From: Thermococcus pacificus
GTDB lineage: Archaea > Methanobacteriota_B > Thermococci > Thermococcales > Thermococcaceae
Assembly (NCBI RefSeq): GCF_002214485.1
Contig: NZ_CP015102.1
Span: 372,001 to 436,000 of the forward strand
Length of the DNA stretch: 64,000 nt
Reading direction: 5' to 3'
Numbering within the stretch: position 1 is the first letter of the stretch; each line of letters begins with the position of its first letter. A program made the translations under genes and the position numbers. Under the pieces are notes generated by a model, which worked only from the letters and a program-made list of their open reading frames with translations, was not told where the DNA came from and ran no database searches. This document shows, piece by piece, positions 5,590-37,060 of this stretch.

Positions 5590-6060
5590 GTCCTTTTCTT
5601 CCCCTTTCTGTATGTCCACTATCTCAACCTCGAAGACAAGGGTCTTCCCGGCGAGCGGGTGGTTGAAGTCGAGGCTGACGCTCTCCCCCTCGATCCTGGC
5701 TATCTTGGCTATCCCCGAGTCGGTCATGACGTACATTCCCTCAACGGGCTCAAGGCCAGCCTGAGTGAACTCCGAGATGGGAACGTCTATGATGAGCTCC
5801 GGGTTGGGCATGCCGTAGGCCTTCTCCGGGGGAACGACGACCGTCTTCTTCTCCCCTATCTCCATGCCTATGAGGGCCTCATCAAGGCCCGGGATGATCT
5901 CCCCGACGCCGACGTTGACGCCAAGGGGACCGTACTCGCGCTCTTCGACGAATATGCCGTTTTCCTTAGCTATATCCTCATAACTAGTGTCAAAAACTTC
6001 ACCGTTCTCAAACCTGCCAACGTAGTGGAAGGCCACAAAATCTCCAGCTTCAATCTTCAT
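5569..6060 (-). CDS. FKBP-type peptidyl-prolyl cis-trans isomerase (SlyD-like)
   Basis: The 163-residue protein has the archaeal FKBP fold: an N-terminal VAFHYVGRFENGEVFDTSYE strand, an insert-in-flap loop, EIIPGLDEALIGMEIGEKKTVVVPPEKAYG, then a C-terminal half with SVSLDFNHPLAGKTLVFEVEIVDI. It isomerises peptidyl-proline bonds and acts as a cytosolic folding helper. The ATG at 6060 (MKIEAGDF) is chosen because a TATA-like GCGTTATAAGG lies at 6106-6116, placing transcription start near 6085; the open frame upstream of that promoter is not counted. The C-terminal tail is acidic (EEKDSGEAEA). Confidence 0.95.
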   Translation of the reverse strand: MKIEAGDFVAFHYVGRFENGEVFDTSYEDIAKENGIFVEEREYGPLGVNVGVGEIIPGLDEALIGMEIGEKKTVVVPPEKAYGMPNPELIIDVPISEFTQAGLEPVEGMYVMTDSGIAKIARIEGESVSLDFNHPLAGKTLVFEVEIVDIQKGEEKDSGEAEA

Positions 6061-6105
6061 TTCCTTCAACTCCAAAATCTTCTTCGTTGGGAGCTTGTCC
6101 CGGCC

Positions 6106-29423: not shown

Positions 29424-30962
29424 TCATGAGACAAACCTAAGCAACAACTTCTTAACTGGCCTAAGGTTTACCCCAAACTTTGCCTCAATTGCTTCAAGGA
29501 GCTCCACATCCTCCTTTTCCACTGTCTTCGCTAGGAGTATAACTGGGAGGTAAAGAACATAAGCCACGAGGGTTGCGGCAACAGCGGTCATTACTCCGCT
29601 GTTGACCCTCGTCGTGACCATAATGATGATCATGGTCAGTCCCGCCATGAGAACCTTCAGGTAGTTCCTTCCAAATGGATGGACACCGGTCTTCCTGTAG
29701 AGCTGCCATGTTCTGTAGATGTTGGCCATTATATACGAAACCGCCGTCGCAACGGCTGCACCTTCAATGCCATACAGCGGTATCAGAAGGACGTTCAGAA
29801 CGATGTTCGCAGTTGCCGCGAATATGTTCCCAATCAAGTTGGCGCGCGGCTCGCCTATCGCTATGAGGCTCATGCCGTTGAGGCCCATAATCACGTGGAA
29901 CATGAAGCCCGCGGAGAGGATCCTGAGGGCTGTGGCGGCCTCAACGTATTTGGGCCCAAAGAATAGCCCTATAGCACTCTCCGGGAAAACGAAGACAAAC
30001 ATGAATACCGGGAACGTGAGAAGGAACACCCACCTGGCAGTGGTCCTGTAGAGTTTGTCCATCCCCTCGATGTCCCCTTTTGTGAAGAAGGCCGTTGCTA
30101 TGGGCATGTAGAGGAAGCCCATCGAGTTGAGGAAGAGCGGCAAAAGCCTTGCTATCGGCGCCGCCCCATTGTAGAGTCCAACAATGTCGGGGTTAAAGTA
30201 GTATCCCAGCATAAGCGAATCCGTCCACCCCATAACGTAGTCGAGGATGCCGGTGAGCATGAGGGGGAAGGAAAACAAGAAGAGCTCCTTTGCCAGTCTC
30301 GGGCTGAAGTGCAACCTTCTGGGGAGCAGACCGAGCCTTATCATTCCTATGGTTGCTATCCCGGATGAGAGAAATTGAGAAATAACGTAGGCGATGAAGA
30401 CAAAGGTGAATCCGAAGCCCAGCAGGATGCCCGTAATGAGTATCAAGAAGAAGAGGAGCGGCGGCAAAAGGTTGCGGAAGTACAGGTTCTCGCGCACCCT
30501 CCCGTACCCCCTGGAAATCGCGACCAGGAGCATCGTCAGAACCATGAAGGGCAGCGCGGGGGCCGCCAGGCGGAGGGTCTCGCTGAGGTAGCGGTCGTTG
30601 AGCAGGGGGGAGATGTATGGGGAGAGGTAAGCTGTTACCATTGCCATTATCACGGACGCGATTATGGCCATCGTAAGCCCGGTTGAGACTAGAGCAGGAA
30701 CGTCTTCTTTTCTCTCCCTCAAGTAGAGGGATATCTCCCTGGGGAGGCCGCTCTGGAGGCCGAGAAGTGCTACCGTCATTGCTATGCTCATGATGGTCAT
30801 GGTCAGCGTAAAAGAGCCGTACTGGTACCTGTCGAAGTACCTCGCTATCAAAGCCCTGCTCAGAAAGGTGAGGAACATCGAGATTACCGTTCCCACGAGG
30901 ACTATCCCCATGCCTCTGGCGACCTTCTGGAGTGCCTTCCCGGTTTCGTCCAAGCCGCTCAC
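29424..30962 (-). CDS. Polysaccharide/oligosaccharide flippase (Wzx/MATE-like)
   Basis: This 512-residue membrane protein has about 14 transmembrane helices and the Wzx-like start GKALQKVARGMGIVLVGTVISMFLTFLSRALIARYFD. It would flip lipid-linked glycans across the membrane. The GTG start overlaps the TauE/SafE stop by 4 nt (GTGA), so it is the last gene of the sulfation operon. Its linkage to PAPS synthesis suggests that the flipped glycan is sulfated, which is inference. Confidence 0.92.
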   Translation of the reverse strand: MSGLDETGKALQKVARGMGIVLVGTVISMFLTFLSRALIARYFDRYQYGSFTLTMTIMSIAMTVALLGLQSGLPREISLYLRERKEDVPALVSTGLTMAIIASVIMAMVTAYLSPYISPLLNDRYLSETLRLAAPALPFMVLTMLLVAISRGYGRVRENLYFRNLLPPLLFFLILITGILLGFGFTFVFIAYVISQFLSSGIATIGMIRLGLLPRRLHFSPRLAKELFLFSFPLMLTGILDYVMGWTDSLMLGYYFNPDIVGLYNGAAPIARLLPLFLNSMGFLYMPIATAFFTKGDIEGMDKLYRTTARWVFLLTFPVFMFVFVFPESAIGLFFGPKYVEAATALRILSAGFMFHVIMGLNGMSLIAIGEPRANLIGNIFAATANIVLNVLLIPLYGIEGAAVATAVSYIMANIYRTWQLYRKTGVHPFGRNYLKVLMAGLTMIIIMVTTRVNSGVMTAVAATLVAYVLYLPVILLAKTVEKEDVELLEAIEAKFGVNLRPVKKLLLRFVS

Positions 30963-31696
30963 CCGCTCATTAGTGTGAAGAGCCCTATCAGCAGGATTAT
31001 GATGTTTATCGCCTTTTTAAGCTTCGCCCCGTCCGCGTTCCTGCTCACATGGGTGCCGAGGTAGACTCCAGGAATCGTTCCGAGGACGAGGAGGGACGCT
31101 ATTCCATAATCGACGCTCCCAACGCTCGCGTAGTTCATGAAGCTGAAGGTTGATAGGGCCAGGCCGTAGGTTATCGTCACGCCGACAACGTCCTTCGGTT
31201 CGAGTCTGACCACGTTCATGAGGGTAAAGCTCACTATCACGCCGGCTCCAACGGACGTGAACTGGACGGTCAGACCGACCACGAAGCCGAGGAGGTAGAC
31301 GTAGGCCCATCTGGGCCGTATTGGGAGGTGAATCTCCCCCTTGAGGAGGCTCAGAACCGCGCTCGCAACGAGGACAGCTCCGAGGAGAACCGTGAGGTAC
31401 TCGTTGAGAACCTCCCTGTTGACCCAGCGGAGGAGCACTCCTCCAAGGATTATCGCAGGGGCGCTCCCGGCGAAGAGCCTCAGTGCTATGTCGTACCTTA
31501 TTCTGCCCTTTCTTCCGTGGAAGAAGACGCCGAAGACCCTCGTGACCGTGGCGTAAAGGAGGTCCGTGCCAACGGCCACCAGTGGCTCGACACCGAGGAA
31601 TATGAGGGAGGGCGTCATCAGCGCCCCGCCGCCGACCCCAGTGAGGCCGACAAGGAAGCCGACCAGGAGGCCCAATCCTACGAATACGGGATTCAA
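30959..31696 (-). CDS. TauE/SafE-family transporter
   Basis: The 245-residue protein has about seven to eight transmembrane helices with the family motif GLTGVGGGALMTPSLIFLGVEPLVAVGTDL and its repeat in the second half (GLTVQFTSVGAGVIVSFTLMNVVRLEPKDVVG). TauE/SafE proteins carry sulfite, sulfoacetate, sulfate-like or thiosulfate anions. Between APS kinase and the flippase, it is a natural candidate for sulfur-oxyanion uptake or export in this operon. Substrate and direction are not shown by sequence. Confidence 0.92.
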   Translation of the reverse strand: MNPVFVGLGLLVGFLVGLTGVGGGALMTPSLIFLGVEPLVAVGTDLLYATVTRVFGVFFHGRKGRIRYDIALRLFAGSAPAIILGGVLLRWVNREVLNEYLTVLLGAVLVASAVLSLLKGEIHLPIRPRWAYVYLLGFVVGLTVQFTSVGAGVIVSFTLMNVVRLEPKDVVGVTITYGLALSTFSFMNYASVGSVDYGIASLLVLGTIPGVYLGTHVSRNADGAKLKKAINIIILLIGLFTLMSG

Positions 31697-31716: not shown

Positions 31717-32262
31717 TCAGGGCAGGTAGCCCATCTCGCGGGCCTTTGTTATGACGGCCTCGACCTCTTCCTCGGGGGTCATCTTCGAGCTGTCCACCCT
31801 AACTTCCGGGTTCTCGGGCTCCTCGTAGACCCCGTCGTAGCCTGTGAGGCCCTTTATTTCCCCCCTCAATGCCTTGGCGTAGAGCCCCTTGGGGTCGCGC
31901 TGGATCCTGACTTCAAGGGGCGCGTAAACGTAGACCTCGATAAAGTCCACTATCTCCTTCCTCGCGTACTCGCGGACGGCCCTGTACGGCGATATCAGAG
32001 AGACTATCGCTATGACGCCGTTCCTGCTGAGGAGCTTGGCCATGTGGATTACAACCCTGTTGTGCATCTCCCTAGCTTCCTTGGAAAAGCCAAGGTTCGG
32101 ATAGAGGGTCTTCCTTATCGTGTCCCCGTCGAGTATCTCCACGCGGTAACCCATTTCCCTCAGCCTTTTTGCCAGCTTAACGGCTAAAGTTGTCTTCCCG
32201 GCACCGCTTGGCCCGGTGAGCCAGATTGTGAATCCTTTTTCAAGGTTTTTGAGTCCTGTCAT
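31717..32262 (-). CDS. cysC: Adenylylsulfate (APS) kinase
   Basis: The 181-residue kinase has P-loop WLTGPSGAGKTTLAVKLAKRL, the APS-binding VEILDGDTIRKTLYPNLGFS, and the family segment SLISPYRAVREYAR. The C-terminal half contains DPKGLYAKALRGEIKGLTG and YEEPENPEVRVDS. It phosphorylates APS to PAPS. The ATG at 32262 follows GGGGGGAGCTGAA. It is co-directional with ATP sulfurylase three genes upstream. With no APS/PAPS reductase in view, the pathway points to sulfation rather than assimilation. Confidence 0.96.
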   Translation of the reverse strand: MTGLKNLEKGFTIWLTGPSGAGKTTLAVKLAKRLREMGYRVEILDGDTIRKTLYPNLGFSKEAREMHNRVVIHMAKLLSRNGVIAIVSLISPYRAVREYARKEIVDFIEVYVYAPLEVRIQRDPKGLYAKALRGEIKGLTGYDGVYEEPENPEVRVDSSKMTPEEEVEAVITKAREMGYLP

Positions 32263-32314
32263 TTCAGCTCCCCCCAATTCTATGAACTAATAATGAAATG
32301 TGGGAAACTAAAGC

Positions 32315-33745
32315 TCAGAGGATGCTCCTCCCGTGCATACTCTTTATCGGTTCTTCTATGCCGAAGAGCCGGAGTATCGTTGGCGCGAAGTCGTAGATCG
32401 TCAGCTGAGTTGCCCTGCTCTCGTCGAAGCCGGGCAAGTACATTGAGAACACCCCGAACTCGGAGTGGTTGGCATCGTCAGGCCCGGTGTCGTTCTCCGG
32501 CAGGTAGTTGGTCGGATGTCCAACGGTTCCCGCCGCGCGCCAGTTGAGGTTGTCGAAGTAGACCATTATGTCCGGCTTGCTGCCCTTCGCCTCAGGGTAG
32601 ATTTCCTCGGGGTAGAACACCTTTGTGTCCCACTTCTCGCCGTTGGGGCCGCGTATAGATTTTATCTGCTCTGCTACCTCGTCTCTCACCTTTTCGAACT
32701 TCGAAAGCGGTATCTTTCCTTCCTTCTCCCTTCCGAGGACGTTGAGGAAGACGCGGGAGTAGTAGCCGCCCCATCCCCAGGCGGTGGTCTCCTTCCAGTC
32801 GATTTCAATTTGCTCAAAGCGCTTTACCTTCCCGTCGTGAAGAACCTCTGGGTTCCTGACCTTCAGCAACCCCTCCTCGGCCAGCCACTGGTTTACGGCG
32901 AAGTTGCCGTGCATGGCCTTTATTCCGTGGTCGGAGACAATGAAGACGGCCGTCTCGTCGAGGTCGATGAGCTTGAGGGTTTCGCCTATCTCCTTATCGA
33001 GAAGCTTGTAGTAGTCAGGGATGACGTTTTCGTACTTGTTGCCCTTCCCCGGGTAGAGGTGGTGATTTTCATCGAAGTAGCGCCAGAATGCGTGGTGGAG
33101 TCTATCCAAGCCTATCTCGACGAAGTGGAAGTAGTCCCAGTCCTTCTCCTGGAGGAGGTACCTTATCACCTCAAAGCGCTTTTCCGTCATTTCCCAGATG
33201 CCCTCTTTCACCTCGTCCTTGGCTTCTTTCCTGAAGGGGACGTCGAATATGTACTCGCCAACGAGGCGCTCAATCTCGCCCTTGAGTTCCTTTGGATATG
33301 TGTAGTCGACGCTAGCATCGGGGGTTATGAAACAGCTGACGAGGTGGCCCTTAATGGGCTTGGGGGGATACGTTGGCGGGACGCCGACTATTATCGACTC
33401 CTTACCGCGCTCGCCGAGGTAGTCCCAGAGCGTGGGTTCTTTCACCTTCCTGCTGTGTGCTATCCAGTAGTCCGTGTAGGAATAGCCAGTCCTGTGCCTG
33501 AAGCCGTAGAGACCAAGCTCGCCCGGCGTCTTCCCCGTGACCATCACCATCCACATTGGGATTGTTATCGCCGGGATCCCGGTCTGCATAGGGCCGTAAA
33601 CGGACTTCTCCAGGAGCCTCTTGACGTTGGGCATGTCGTCAATGAAGCGGTTGAACAGAAGTTCCGGTGGGGCCGAATCAAGGCCTATGACGAAGACACG
33701 CTTGGTGTTCTCCATTCCTTCCCTAACCTTCTTTCCAAACTCCAT
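32315..33745 (-). CDS. AlkP-superfamily nucleotide phosphodiesterase-like protein
   Basis: A 476-residue protein: VFVIGLDSAPPELLF (metal Asp), nucleophile Thr in AITIPMWMVMVTGKTP, DRLHHAFW, FIVSDHGIKAMHGNF, and late ANHSEFGVFSMYLPG. The sulfatase C-x-P-S-R motif is absent, so a phosphodiesterase/nucleotide pyrophosphatase role is more likely than sulfatase. The start follows GAGGTGAGAGTT, 5 nt after the DHH stop. In a PAPS operon it might hydrolyse APS, PAPS or another nucleotide, or remodel the glycan carrier; this is inference. Confidence 0.88.
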   Translation of the reverse strand: MEFGKKVREGMENTKRVFVIGLDSAPPELLFNRFIDDMPNVKRLLEKSVYGPMQTGIPAITIPMWMVMVTGKTPGELGLYGFRHRTGYSYTDYWIAHSRKVKEPTLWDYLGERGKESIIVGVPPTYPPKPIKGHLVSCFITPDASVDYTYPKELKGEIERLVGEYIFDVPFRKEAKDEVKEGIWEMTEKRFEVIRYLLQEKDWDYFHFVEIGLDRLHHAFWRYFDENHHLYPGKGNKYENVIPDYYKLLDKEIGETLKLIDLDETAVFIVSDHGIKAMHGNFAVNQWLAEEGLLKVRNPEVLHDGKVKRFEQIEIDWKETTAWGWGGYYSRVFLNVLGREKEGKIPLSKFEKVRDEVAEQIKSIRGPNGEKWDTKVFYPEEIYPEAKGSKPDIMVYFDNLNWRAAGTVGHPTNYLPENDTGPDDANHSEFGVFSMYLPGFDESRATQLTIYDFAPTILRLFGIEEPIKSMHGRSIL

Positions 33746-33750
33746 AACTC

Positions 33751-34686
33751 TCACCTCAGGTATTCCTCAATGATTTTGAGGACGTCATCTATTTTATCCC
33801 TCTCACAGACGCAGCCGAGAACCTCCCGCTTTCCGCCAGCGTTCGTTCCGAGCCCCCTAAGGCGAGTGATGACTTTACCCATGTCTATCCTCTCCGCCTC
33901 CTCCGGGGAGATGCGGAAGTAGACCTGAGCCTTCCCGTGGAAGTTCCTGTTTACGACGACCGCACCCCGGTAGTTCATCTCCCAGACGAGCTTTCTCGCG
34001 ACCTTTGAGATCACGTTGTAGGGGCTTTCGAACTCCACGAGGGCAAAGCCGTTCTTCTCCTCAACGCTCGAAAGGGCGTTCTCGATTGCGTCCCTTATTG
34101 CCTTGGCCTTTTTGATCCAGGGTTCGTATTCGAGAAGGTCTTTGATTTCGCTTTCAAGGAGAACTGTCACCGCTTCCTCGACGGCTTCCCTCTCCATCGC
34201 GATGTAGTTGGAGTCAATTAGCTCGACCAGCCTTAAGGCTTCCGTCCGCGATAGGTTTGCTTTCCGGAGGAGCTCGTTAACAGTCTCTAGCTCGAAGGCC
34301 TTCTCCCCGATGTCGCCAACGACGCCAAGGGCGCTCCAAGCGTTCCATATCCCGAAGTATTCCGAGACGACGAGCGAGCATGAGGGATAGTATTTGCCCT
34401 CAAGAGAAGGGTTAACCTGCTCCACGAGGGGGTTTTTGATTTTTGGCTGGGTGTGGTGGTCGATGAAGAGCGTCGGAACCTTTACCTTCTCCACTTCGTC
34501 AGGCACGTTGAAGTCGAGGACGTAGAGCCTCTCTGCCCTTTCGATAGCGTCCCATATCCGCCCGTCAAACCTGAACTCGCCTATTGGGGCGGTCATGTTG
34601 GTGAACTCCTTCAGCCCAAGAGCCCTCACGAGAAGCGCAGCCGAGGTTACCCCGTCTGTGTCCCAGTGGTGAACTATGAGGTGCAT
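33751..34686 (-). CDS. DHH-family phosphoesterase, candidate PAP phosphatase
   Basis: The 311-residue protein has DHH motifs I-IV: HHWDTDGVTSAAL, LYVLDFN, LFIDHHTQP and GVVGDIGEKAF. A DHHA1-like C-terminus follows, with GLGTNAGGKREVLGC in place of the usual GGGH. The start at 34686 (MHLIVHHW) has GGAGG 7 nt upstream; the ATG at 34692 is closer. Family members such as NrnA degrade short RNA or dephosphorylate PAP, the by-product of sulfotransferases. Its place between sat and cysC makes PAP recycling attractive, but this is inferred. Confidence 0.88.
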   Translation of the reverse strand: MHLIVHHWDTDGVTSAALLVRALGLKEFTNMTAPIGEFRFDGRIWDAIERAERLYVLDFNVPDEVEKVKVPTLFIDHHTQPKIKNPLVEQVNPSLEGKYYPSCSLVVSEYFGIWNAWSALGVVGDIGEKAFELETVNELLRKANLSRTEALRLVELIDSNYIAMEREAVEEAVTVLLESEIKDLLEYEPWIKKAKAIRDAIENALSSVEEKNGFALVEFESPYNVISKVARKLVWEMNYRGAVVVNRNFHGKAQVYFRISPEEAERIDMGKVITRLRGLGTNAGGKREVLGCVCERDKIDDVLKIIEEYLR

Positions 34687-34718
34687 CTCCATTCCTCCAG
34701 ATAAAATTTGAGAGAAAA

Positions 34719-35858
34719 TCACTCCACGAAGGGGTTCTCAAAGCTCCTGATGACCTCGTAGACTTCGGGCCTCATCATGTACTCCGGCGGCTGCTCGCCG
34801 GCCATTATCATCTTCCTGAGCTTCGTGCCGCTTATGTGGACGTGGAACTCTTCACTGTGGGGGCATATCTTGGCGTTGACCATTCCCCCGCACTTCCTGC
34901 AGTAGAAGGCCTCCCTGATGAACATCGGGGTTATGCCGAGGTCAGGGAAGTTGTCGAACATCTCCCAGGCCTCGTAGGGCCCGTAGTAGTCGCCGACGCC
35001 TGCATGGTCGCGGCCGACGATGAAGTGGGTCGCACCGAAGTTCTTCCTCATTATCGCGTGGTGAATGGCCTCCCTTGGGCCAGCGTAGCGCATCTCGTAG
35101 CGGACCGTCGCGAGGGTCGCGGCGTCCTTTGGGTAGTAGTGCTTGAACAGGGCTTCGTAGGCCTTGATTATGACCTCGTCCCTGTAGTCGCCCTTCTTCT
35201 TCTTGCCGAGGACCGGGTTGATAAAGAGGCCGTCGACGAAGGTAAGGGCCGCTTTCTGGACGTACTCGTGGCCGACGTGGGGGGCGTTCCTCGTCTGGAA
35301 GGCTACTATCGTCTTCCATCCGAGCTCCTTGAAGAGGATCCTTGTCTCGACCGGCCTCAGCGTGTACTTGGCGAATGGGTTCGGCAGCTCGTTGAGGAGC
35401 TCTATCTCGCCGCCGACGAGGTAGTCGCCCATGCTCATTACCCTGACCACTCCCGGATGGGCCGGGTCATCGGTCTTGAAGACCTTGACGGCGAACTCCT
35501 TTTTGTCGTAGGTATAAATCTCCTCGACGTGCATCCTCGCTATTGGGAGGCCGTCGTGGTAGAGGAGAACCGCGTCGCCCTCGTCGAAGGTCTTCTCTCT
35601 CACGTCGAGGACTATTGGGATCGTCCATGGAGTGTCGTCGCTCAGGCGCATGTGGTCGAGGACGCTATGAAAGTCGTCGCTAGTTAGAAATCCTTTAAGT
35701 GGAGAATAGACGCCGTGGGCGATGTTCTCGAGGTCTACGGCCCTCCCGTGGTCTATGTTAACGCGTGGATACTCCTTCTGCTCGCTCAGGATCCTCTCGC
35801 GGGTCCTCTCGGCAACGAGTCTCCTAACGAGTTTGCCGCCGTGGGGCTTAGATACCAT
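34719..35858 (-). CDS. sat: ATP sulfurylase (sulfate adenylyltransferase)
   Basis: The 379-residue enzyme has the PUA-like N-terminal domain, the catalytic VAFQTRNAPHVGHEYVQKAA (QTRN and H-x-x-H), the ANP-binding FIVGRDHAGVGDYYGPYEA, and a C-terminal cysteine cluster FYCRKCGGMVNAKICPH typical of archaeal/bacterial zinc-binding forms, before ISGTKLRKMI. It forms APS from ATP and sulfate. The ATG at 35858 follows GGTGATAACG. It is the first enzyme gene after the ribbon-helix-helix regulator. Confidence 0.96.
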   Translation of the reverse strand: MVSKPHGGKLVRRLVAERTRERILSEQKEYPRVNIDHGRAVDLENIAHGVYSPLKGFLTSDDFHSVLDHMRLSDDTPWTIPIVLDVREKTFDEGDAVLLYHDGLPIARMHVEEIYTYDKKEFAVKVFKTDDPAHPGVVRVMSMGDYLVGGEIELLNELPNPFAKYTLRPVETRILFKELGWKTIVAFQTRNAPHVGHEYVQKAALTFVDGLFINPVLGKKKKGDYRDEVIIKAYEALFKHYYPKDAATLATVRYEMRYAGPREAIHHAIMRKNFGATHFIVGRDHAGVGDYYGPYEAWEMFDNFPDLGITPMFIREAFYCRKCGGMVNAKICPHSEEFHVHISGTKLRKMIMAGEQPPEYMMRPEVYEVIRSFENPFVE

Positions 35859-35879: not shown

Positions 35880-36107
35880 TCAGTCGAGGTAGCCGAGGGC
35901 GCGAAGCCTCTCCTTGACCTTCTCTTCCTCCTCTTCGGTGAAGACTTCCTCCTTCTCTTCCTCCTCGAGGCTCGCCAGGACCTCGCGGAGGACGTAGGTC
36001 ACGTAGTCGGAAACCGAAGTGAACCCTGTGCCCTCTATCCTGGCCTTTATCTTGTCGTAGAGGGGCTTCGGTATGGAAACGGTCGTGTACTTCTTCTCCT
36101 CAGCCAT
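35880..36107 (-). CDS. Ribbon-helix-helix regulator (CopG family)
   Basis: A 75-residue protein with a CopG-type DNA-binding N-terminus (YTTVSIPKPLYDKIKARIEG, then GFTSVSDYVTYVLREVLASL) and a Glu/Lys-rich tail. The ATG at 36107 has GGGAGGTG 7 nt upstream. It is the promoter-proximal gene of the sulfation operon, 21 nt before sat. Regulators of this type usually bind short repeats spaced by one helical turn; three such repeats overlap its own predicted transcription start. It therefore probably autoregulates the operon. Confidence 0.9.
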   Translation of the reverse strand: MAEEKKYTTVSIPKPLYDKIKARIEGTGFTSVSDYVTYVLREVLASLEEEEKEEVFTEEEEEKVKERLRALGYLD

Positions 36108-36123
36108 CACGAACACCTCCCGC

Positions 36124-36153
36124 TTTAATGATATTTAATGCCATTTAATTAAA
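36124..36153. promoter_or_regulatory. Three TTTAAT repeats at 10-bp spacing (candidate RHH operator)
   Basis: TTTAAT occurs at 36124, 36134 and 36144, exactly 10 bp apart, with G next in the first two. The array sits between the TATA box (36165-36172) and the RHH start codon, over the expected transcription start. Confidence 0.65.
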
Positions 36154-36164
36154 AGGAGGATGAG

Positions 36165-36172
36165 TATATAAA
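36165..36172 (-). promoter_or_regulatory. TATA box of the sulfation operon
   Basis: TTTATATA on the minus strand, 58 nt upstream of the regulator ATG, is the strongest TATA match in this intergenic region. Transcription would start near 36140. Confidence 0.6.
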
Positions 36173-36463
36173 TCTCTCGGAGGATCACTCCACTCCCTCT
36201 ATATCTTAGTATGCCCGTCGATGAGGCTTTTCCTGAGCTCGGGTTTCTTATTTCACACTTCTTGTTGACAATGGAGCTCCACATCGTCCAGTTCCGTATT
36301 AGAAAACCGTTCTATGCTCTCTGTGGCTGTTTAATCCTCTTTTACAGGTTGTTTTATCTAATTTTGTAACTCTTTATTTAAGTTGGTCTTTAACTATTTT
36401 CGATAGAAACCTTTATAAGCTTCAGTCGCGGATTTTCCTCGATGACTATTTGGGGTGGTTAAG
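36173..36463. other. Intergenic region without a convincing gene
   Basis: It is AT-rich towards its right end. A 52-codon plus frame (36211-36369) has no ribosome site and no recognisable features. CCTTTATAAGC at 36410-36420 is the likely TATA for the TasA-like gene, about 45 nt before its ATG. Confidence 0.5.
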
Positions 36464-37060
36464 ATGAAACGGGCTATGGTTGTTGGAGTGCTCGGTCTCT
36501 TGGTGTTTCTGGCCGGGGTCAAGTTTGGAGTTTCGTATTTCAGCGACGTGGCCAAGTCCGAGGGAAACCAGATTTCCACCGGGGAATTTGACATTGGCAT
36601 AAGCAGGGACGGAGAAAGGTTCTACGATGACTATAAGCTATTCTCCTTCGACGACCTCCAGCCGGGAGAGGAGAGGACTGTTGACTTCTATATCAAAAAC
36701 CGAGGAGACTACCCGATTTCCTTCGTTGGCATGGTTTTCAACATCACCGACCTTGAGGACGGCAGCCCAAGCAAGGCTGAGGCCCTGGTTGATAAAACCC
36801 CCGATACCGGTGAGCTCAGTAAATACTTGATAATCAAGGACTTCCGCGTCTCTCAGGATGGTGATGAGAAAGTCCTCAGTGACTACATAGGGAAGAGTCT
36901 GAAGGATCTTAATATGAGCGAACTCCAGATCTTCTCGGGCTCACTTCCGGAAAATGGAATCCTAAAGGTAACTTTGACTGTTCAACTTTCCCCCGCCGCT
37001 GGCAACGACTGCCTCACCGACACTTCAAAAATCTGCATTCGGATCACCGCGGGGCAGTGA
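36464..37060 (+). CDS. TasA/camelysin (CalY)-like secreted protein, possible pilus or matrix subunit
   Basis: The 198-residue protein has a signal segment (KRAMVVGVLGLLVFLAGVKF) directly followed by the family hallmark VSYFSDVAKSEGNQISTGEFDIGI. TasA/CalY proteins and archaeal bundling pili share such a start and a jelly-roll fold. A single Cys pair near the end (NDCLTDTSKICI) may form a disulfide. The start follows GGGGTGGTTAAG. The gene appears monocistronic. The protein is exported and may polymerise by donor-strand exchange; that function is inferred. Confidence 0.78.
   Translation: MKRAMVVGVLGLLVFLAGVKFGVSYFSDVAKSEGNQISTGEFDIGISRDGERFYDDYKLFSFDDLQPGEERTVDFYIKNRGDYPISFVGMVFNITDLEDGSPSKAEALVDKTPDTGELSKYLIIKDFRVSQDGDEKVLSDYIGKSLKDLNMSELQIFSGSLPENGILKVTLTVQLSPAAGNDCLTDTSKICIRITAGQ

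Follow-up and report, generated by a model that had tools for sequence, protein, structure and literature searches.

According to our analysis, a phased array of three TTAA-cored repeats in the promoter of a sulfate-activation operon of Thermococcus pacificus is very probably the binding site of the regulator encoded by the first gene of that operon, a 75-residue protein which probably belongs to the ribbon-helix-helix (RHH) fold. We propose, with a probability of about 0.8, that the array serves as the operator of this protein, whose dimers would bind it via their beta-ribbon and repress their own operon.

The window (the whole stretch of DNA analysed here, 64 kb) carries the operon on its minus strand in the order RHH-sat-DHH-PDE-apsK-tauE, the regulator being first. 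The regulator gene (35880-36107; recognition strand KYTTVSIP; assigned from sequence, family models and a structure model) is followed by genes for ATP sulfurylase (sat, 34719-35858, Pfam/NCBIfam), a DHH phosphoesterase (33751-34722), a member of the type I phosphodiesterase / nucleotide pyrophosphatase family (32315-33754), APS kinase (apsK, 31717-32277, Pfam/NCBIfam) and a TauE/SafE family transporter (30959-31696), the phosphodiesterase and the transporter being recognised by family matches. A polysaccharide flippase family gene (29424-30962, family match) is the last of the gene run and a putative member of the operon. Besides its family match, the DHH protein is a likely pAp phosphatase by position and by homology to enzymes assayed in PMC8268124, where its homologues hydrolyse pAp. 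Genes for sat, APS kinase and a pAp-phosphatase-like protein thus occur together, as expected of an operon of sulfate activation (PAPS synthesis), and the label of a sulfation operon, given to it by an earlier sequence-only reading, is reasonable. The same cluster is carried by Pyrococcus yayanosii, where the first gene, PYCH_17520, holds the same position in the same operon and is described in the accessible part of PMC8268124 as a putative CopG regulator proposed to 'potentially regulate' the sulfate-assimilation pathway; that part of the paper does not report an operator for the cluster.

The repeats are exact in the sequence. On the plus strand TTTAAT begins at 36124, 36134 and 36144, as the sequence-only reading had noticed, so that the units occupy 36124-36129 (closest to the start codon), 36134-36139 (middle) and 36144-36149 (closest to the TATA box); because the regulator and the operon lie on the minus strand, the functional reading of the array is ATTAAA N4 ATTAAA N4 ATTAAA. 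The outermost unit runs on as TTAATTAAAT, and the conserved block, the candidate operator TTAATTAAATGGCATTAAATATCATTAA with three TTAA-cored units at 10-bp spacing, spans 36125-36152 on the minus strand, as delimited from sequence, conservation and shuffles. The array was correctly placed by that reading between a TATA box and the regulator start. On the minus strand it lies downstream of the TATA box TTTATATA (36172-36165), which has TATA-like columns kept in the Thermococcaceae alignment and a purine-rich BRE-like stretch upstream of it (36173-36179), and upstream of the Shine-Dalgarno sequence GGAGGTG of the regulator gene (36114-36120), also kept in that alignment; it ends 18 bp short of the gene start, the ATG being at 36107. 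Judging from the TATA spacing, transcription would be expected to start at approximately 36142 on the minus strand, a point which the array would overlap. The triple TTTAAT array occurs once in the window at 0 mismatches, and even at no more than 3 mismatches only 0.01 occurrences are expected there by chance according to dinucleotide shuffles. A weakly camelysin-like (Peptidase_M73) gene at 36464-37060 points away from the operon on the other side of their common intergenic region.

Assignment of the 75-residue protein to the RHH fold draws on several weak matches. The window protein scores 15.9 bits against the Pfam model PF01402 (RHH_1), under the curated cut-off of 20.5, and 16.8 bits against the NikR family model, whose cut-off is 119; both matches, below the Pfam/NCBIfam cut-offs as they are, align on the recognition strand. 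RHH_1 is matched at E<=1 by 11 of 28 relatives, with a best E of 2.5e-4, and a sequence search of the PDB returned P. horikoshii NikR at E=0.045. AF2 models show two helices at RHH positions and a C-terminal helix; in the window protein, helices 14-24 and 32-52 follow TTVSIP (pLDDT 81), and the strand is unformed in the monomer model. In known RHH proteins this strand pairs across the dimer. The top Foldseek matches of the monomer model are mostly RHH proteins (ParD2, Reg576, NikR, PrpA), none with E<0.001 and with E-values >1.

The strand-helix-helix of the N-terminal RHH domain of NikR (P. horikoshii 2BJ1; E. coli 3OD2) aligns over regulator residues 8-50, with T9 and S11 of the regulator opposite S7 and S9 of P. 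horikoshii NikR and a Foldseek rmsd of 1.0 A over 41 columns (E-value not significant). Identity with the nickel regulator NikR itself was rejected, as the regulator has no C-terminal His/Cys metal-binding domain; unlike NikR, it has neither a nickel-binding domain nor a single His or Cys, which makes direct thiol or classical metal sensing unlikely. The operators differ as well, that of NikR being a widely spaced palindrome and the candidate described here a 10-bp direct array. With MetJ, omega and CopG the regulator shares small size, the probable RHH fold, short tandem repeats over its own promoter and presumed autoregulation; it differs from all three in its archaeal promoter and its acidic C-terminal segment ending LRALGYLD, and from MetJ and omega in the 10-bp period with TTAA cores. 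The sequence-only reading had remarked that RHH proteins commonly bind repeats one helical turn apart. A 10-bp step is indeed plausible for such a protein, but it is not the standard one, since well-studied RHH operators are often spaced otherwise (MetJ 8 bp, omega 7 bp, Arc about 11 bp). The C-terminal segment, ending EEEEEKVKERLRALGYLD in the window protein (35880-36107), shows strong conservation also among proteins with another recognition strand, and may hold a sensing or protein-contact function.

To follow the repeats through the family, upstream regions of regulator orthologues were gathered from 94 Thermococcaceae genomes, 60 of which have the regulator and 63 Sat; intact sat genes have the RHH gene directly upstream. 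The sequence-only reading had suggested a search for the same repeat before orthologous operons, and it is present there: all 48 Thermococcaceae loci whose protein has the TTVSIP strand carry 2-4 ATTAA units spaced by 10 bp, with 12-28 nt between the array and the start codon, and arrays are found in other archaeal phyla too. None of the 12 Thermococcaceae loci with other strands carries such an array, though they head the same operon. When 47 loci were aligned on the array, mean pairwise identity was 95% in the ATTAAAT core columns, as compared with 73% in spacer columns, 26% in the upstream flank and 50% at four-fold degenerate third positions in the gene. Some species of the family have a fourth unit, and the distances from TATA to the outermost unit cluster at 12-13 and 22-25 bp, approximately one helical turn apart. 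Remnants of sat and/or the RHH gene (G069:C1:864784-865374, G021:C1:713414-713500, G009:C1:508708-509055, G039:C5:169845-170040) suggest repeated loss of the operon.

The association reaches far beyond Thermococcaceae. A protein profile compared with one-per-species prokaryote genomes gave 311 relatives, and the best 80 of 311 were kept. These best 80 belong to Thermoplasmatota, Geoglobus, Altiarchaeales, Diapherotrites, Theionarchaea, Bathyarchaeota, Thermoproteota and Asgard lineages, and relatives from Thermoplasmatota, Archaeoglobi, Theionarchaea, Altiarchaeales, Diapherotrites and Asgard archaea head sat operons; since many relatives come from metagenome bins, single taxon labels may be wrong. 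Most of the best 80 of 311 stand directly before sat and most have arrays, for instance ATAATTACAT ATAACTAAAT ATAATGATAT ATGGTTATAT ATAATTAGG at locus L163. Outside Thermococcales the unit consensus is approximately TWTAATTANA, with three units per locus. The TAATTA unit used below was chosen after inspecting the loci, and a motif-free test of periodicity is independent of that choice: in 61 de-duplicated non-Thermococcales loci, self-similarity has z=17.6 at offset 10, z=10.9 at offset 20 and z=4.8 at offset 30, and comparable self-similarity was not found 80-150 bp upstream in the same 61 loci. Upstream of the genes of two Hermodarchaeota loci (L185, L188), alternating TAATGC/GCATTA elements occur instead of a plain direct array.

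The presence of the array follows the recognition strand of the protein. In 142 de-duplicated loci, including divergent relatives from a survey of Thermoplasmatota, an array was called when two TAATTA units at 10 bp had at most one mismatch in twelve. Such arrays occur in 87 of 106 loci with strands of the type T[TS][VI]S[IL]P versus 2 of 36 with other strands (Fisher 7e-17, a value which ignores shared ancestry and the adjacency of gene and promoter), and, where a sulfate-activation gene lies downstream, in 86/103 versus 1/17; control periods of 7, 8, 9, 11, 12 and 13 bp gave 1-4 loci each. Both exceptions among the other-strand loci are YSTVSIP, in which the outward T and S are retained, and three FTSVSIP loci, with S replacing T, are also array-bearing; counting these YSTVSIP and FTSVSIP strands as array-bearing is post hoc, after the fixed TAATTA test. 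That fixed threshold is missed by 19 TTVSIP-type loci, two of which (L002 and the window's own locus, L003) do have ATTAAA arrays, the others looking either degenerate or truly devoid of an array (for example L283 and L188). The strand positions concerned align with those of NikR which, from RHH-DNA complexes, we take to be the DNA-facing ones. One group of proteins (loci L050-L059; B-type hereafter) carries E and K in place of the outward T and S; their C-terminal half has hardly changed and they still head the operon, but the array is missing. Genome G012 has a B-type strand (EVKIP) and no array. A relative with the VTIKIP strand (L136 near 1470-1727; L137 near 5815-6080) has different repeats, ACACTCTAATAACACTCTAATAAGAGTGTT, at its start codon, which may be the operator for this strand type, and by eye it precedes PAPS-reductase/CysD-like, TauE-like and CysN-like genes. 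As the loci are related and independent switches are few, the association of strand and operator is correlative: a tree-aware test within Thermococcaceae found 3 of 3 pairs concordant (p=0.25), and the tree-aware count in the wider set, about 2 versus 0, is not significant, independent switches being too few.

The three-unit pattern was also searched, at no more than 2 mismatches, in all 94 Thermococcaceae genomes. It occurs in 47 of them, with few sites outside the RHH promoter, and family genomes that lack the RHH gene have none. Two genomes have a second full array, with the same TATA geometry, before a short ORF and a second TauE-family gene (L038 974-1855 in G084; L124 3060-3994 in G083). 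Two-unit matches in ten relatives revealed no other coherent target, and two-unit sites elsewhere in G026, G074 and G002 had no evident sulfur-related one. In four Thermoplasmatales genomes the array pattern seen outside Thermococcales is almost confined to the RHH promoter of the sat operon, with zero hits for reversed-pattern controls. With the array nearly confined to the RHH promoter, the regulon looks very narrow. A wider regulon in the genome of the window was considered and rejected, since near-matches are located within coding sequence (1409861-1409918) or close to an unrelated 460-aa gene (840293), and so was co-regulation by SurR, the half-site pattern of which is at chance level in the window.

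Autoregulation, a simple inference in the sequence-only reading, is strongly supported by this comparative evidence, as conserved repeats stand in the regulator's own promoter and are paired with one type of RHH protein; its direction is probably repression. In the mechanism we propose, RHH dimers would attach to one repeat after the next along the same helix face via their N-terminal beta-ribbon, probably cooperatively, with the outward residues Y7, T9 and S11 of KYTTVSIP contacting DNA. Bound dimers would span the region from about -10 to +17 and prevent RNA polymerase from loading or initiating. The regulator would therefore repress its own operon, and RHH-sat-DHH-PDE-apsK-tauE would be under negative feedback by which PAPS synthesis is adjusted; a separate tauE operon would be repressed as well in some genomes. 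Negative autoregulation is the simplest reading because the array lies over the start site and the regulator is encoded by the operon itself.

The same binding might in principle have the opposite outcome, the RHH protein activating the operon or acting as an activator/repressor switch. We find this unlikely, as the array is downstream of TATA and over the expected start, where a bound protein is expected to block polymerase, and archaeal promoter activators usually sit upstream of TATA. Both readings can draw on Palaeococcus pacificus, where sat (PAP_09885) and its neighbour by locus number, the CopG gene PAP_09880, both go up with sulfur (PMC6981617); a joint rise of regulator gene and sat agrees with derepression and with positive feedback alike. 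In T. onnurineus the sulfur response includes ATP sulfurylase going up and PAP phosphatase going down (PMC4463584). From the changes in these two species the operon may respond to sulfur supply, and such responses could be indirect.

It would be logical to ask further whether the RHH protein is the reader of the repeats at all. A gene and its promoter, being neighbours, can be passed on together, and this adjacency alone could give co-inheritance even if some other transcription factor used the array and the RHH protein acted elsewhere or on something else. That is very unlikely in our view, for among Thermococcaceae genomes the array is absent wherever the RHH gene is absent, it disappears where the recognition strand differs while the rest of the operon is retained, and it is found at no other promoter except that of the tauE operon in two species. 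That the repeats function within the mRNA leader, or represent mere AT-rich promoter sequence without a regulator, seems hardly credible: they are very AT-rich and lie partly in the expected 5' leader, but there is no unusual RNA folding (z=-0.12), the period is exactly 10 bp with other periods at background, conservation of the array is far above that of the flank and of four-fold sites, and a part of the conserved block is upstream of the expected start site. Binding by the RHH protein with repression of its own operon is hence the reading we retain.

Systems in which an RHH protein controls its own gene through tandem repeats are already known. New, it seems, are the operator itself, its narrow coupling across archaea to a single RHH family of PAPS operons, and the fact that it follows the recognition strand; we found no description of this operator and no binding assay in the open-access literature. 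We may even suggest, quite tentatively and with more doubt than conviction, an old archaea-wide regulator of PAPS synthesis, in which one RHH family and a phased 10-bp TTAA array before sat operons, from Thermococci to Thermoplasmatota, Archaeoglobi, DPANN and Asgard, would form a cooperative filament and sense APS, PAPS or PAP via the conserved C-terminal tail, a change of two strand residues having shifted the operator specificity in some lineages.

Few archaeal operators can be predicted from sequence alone, and seemingly fewer are retained across phyla. The pair described here offers a regulator-operator code in which about two residues of the recognition strand are set against a 10-bp repeat. 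The naturally occurring change from TTVSIP to VEVKIP strands within the same operon is a useful system for the study of specificity change in RHH proteins. The pair also offers a way into the questions of how archaea that lack a complete sulfate-reduction pathway make PAPS and what they use it for.
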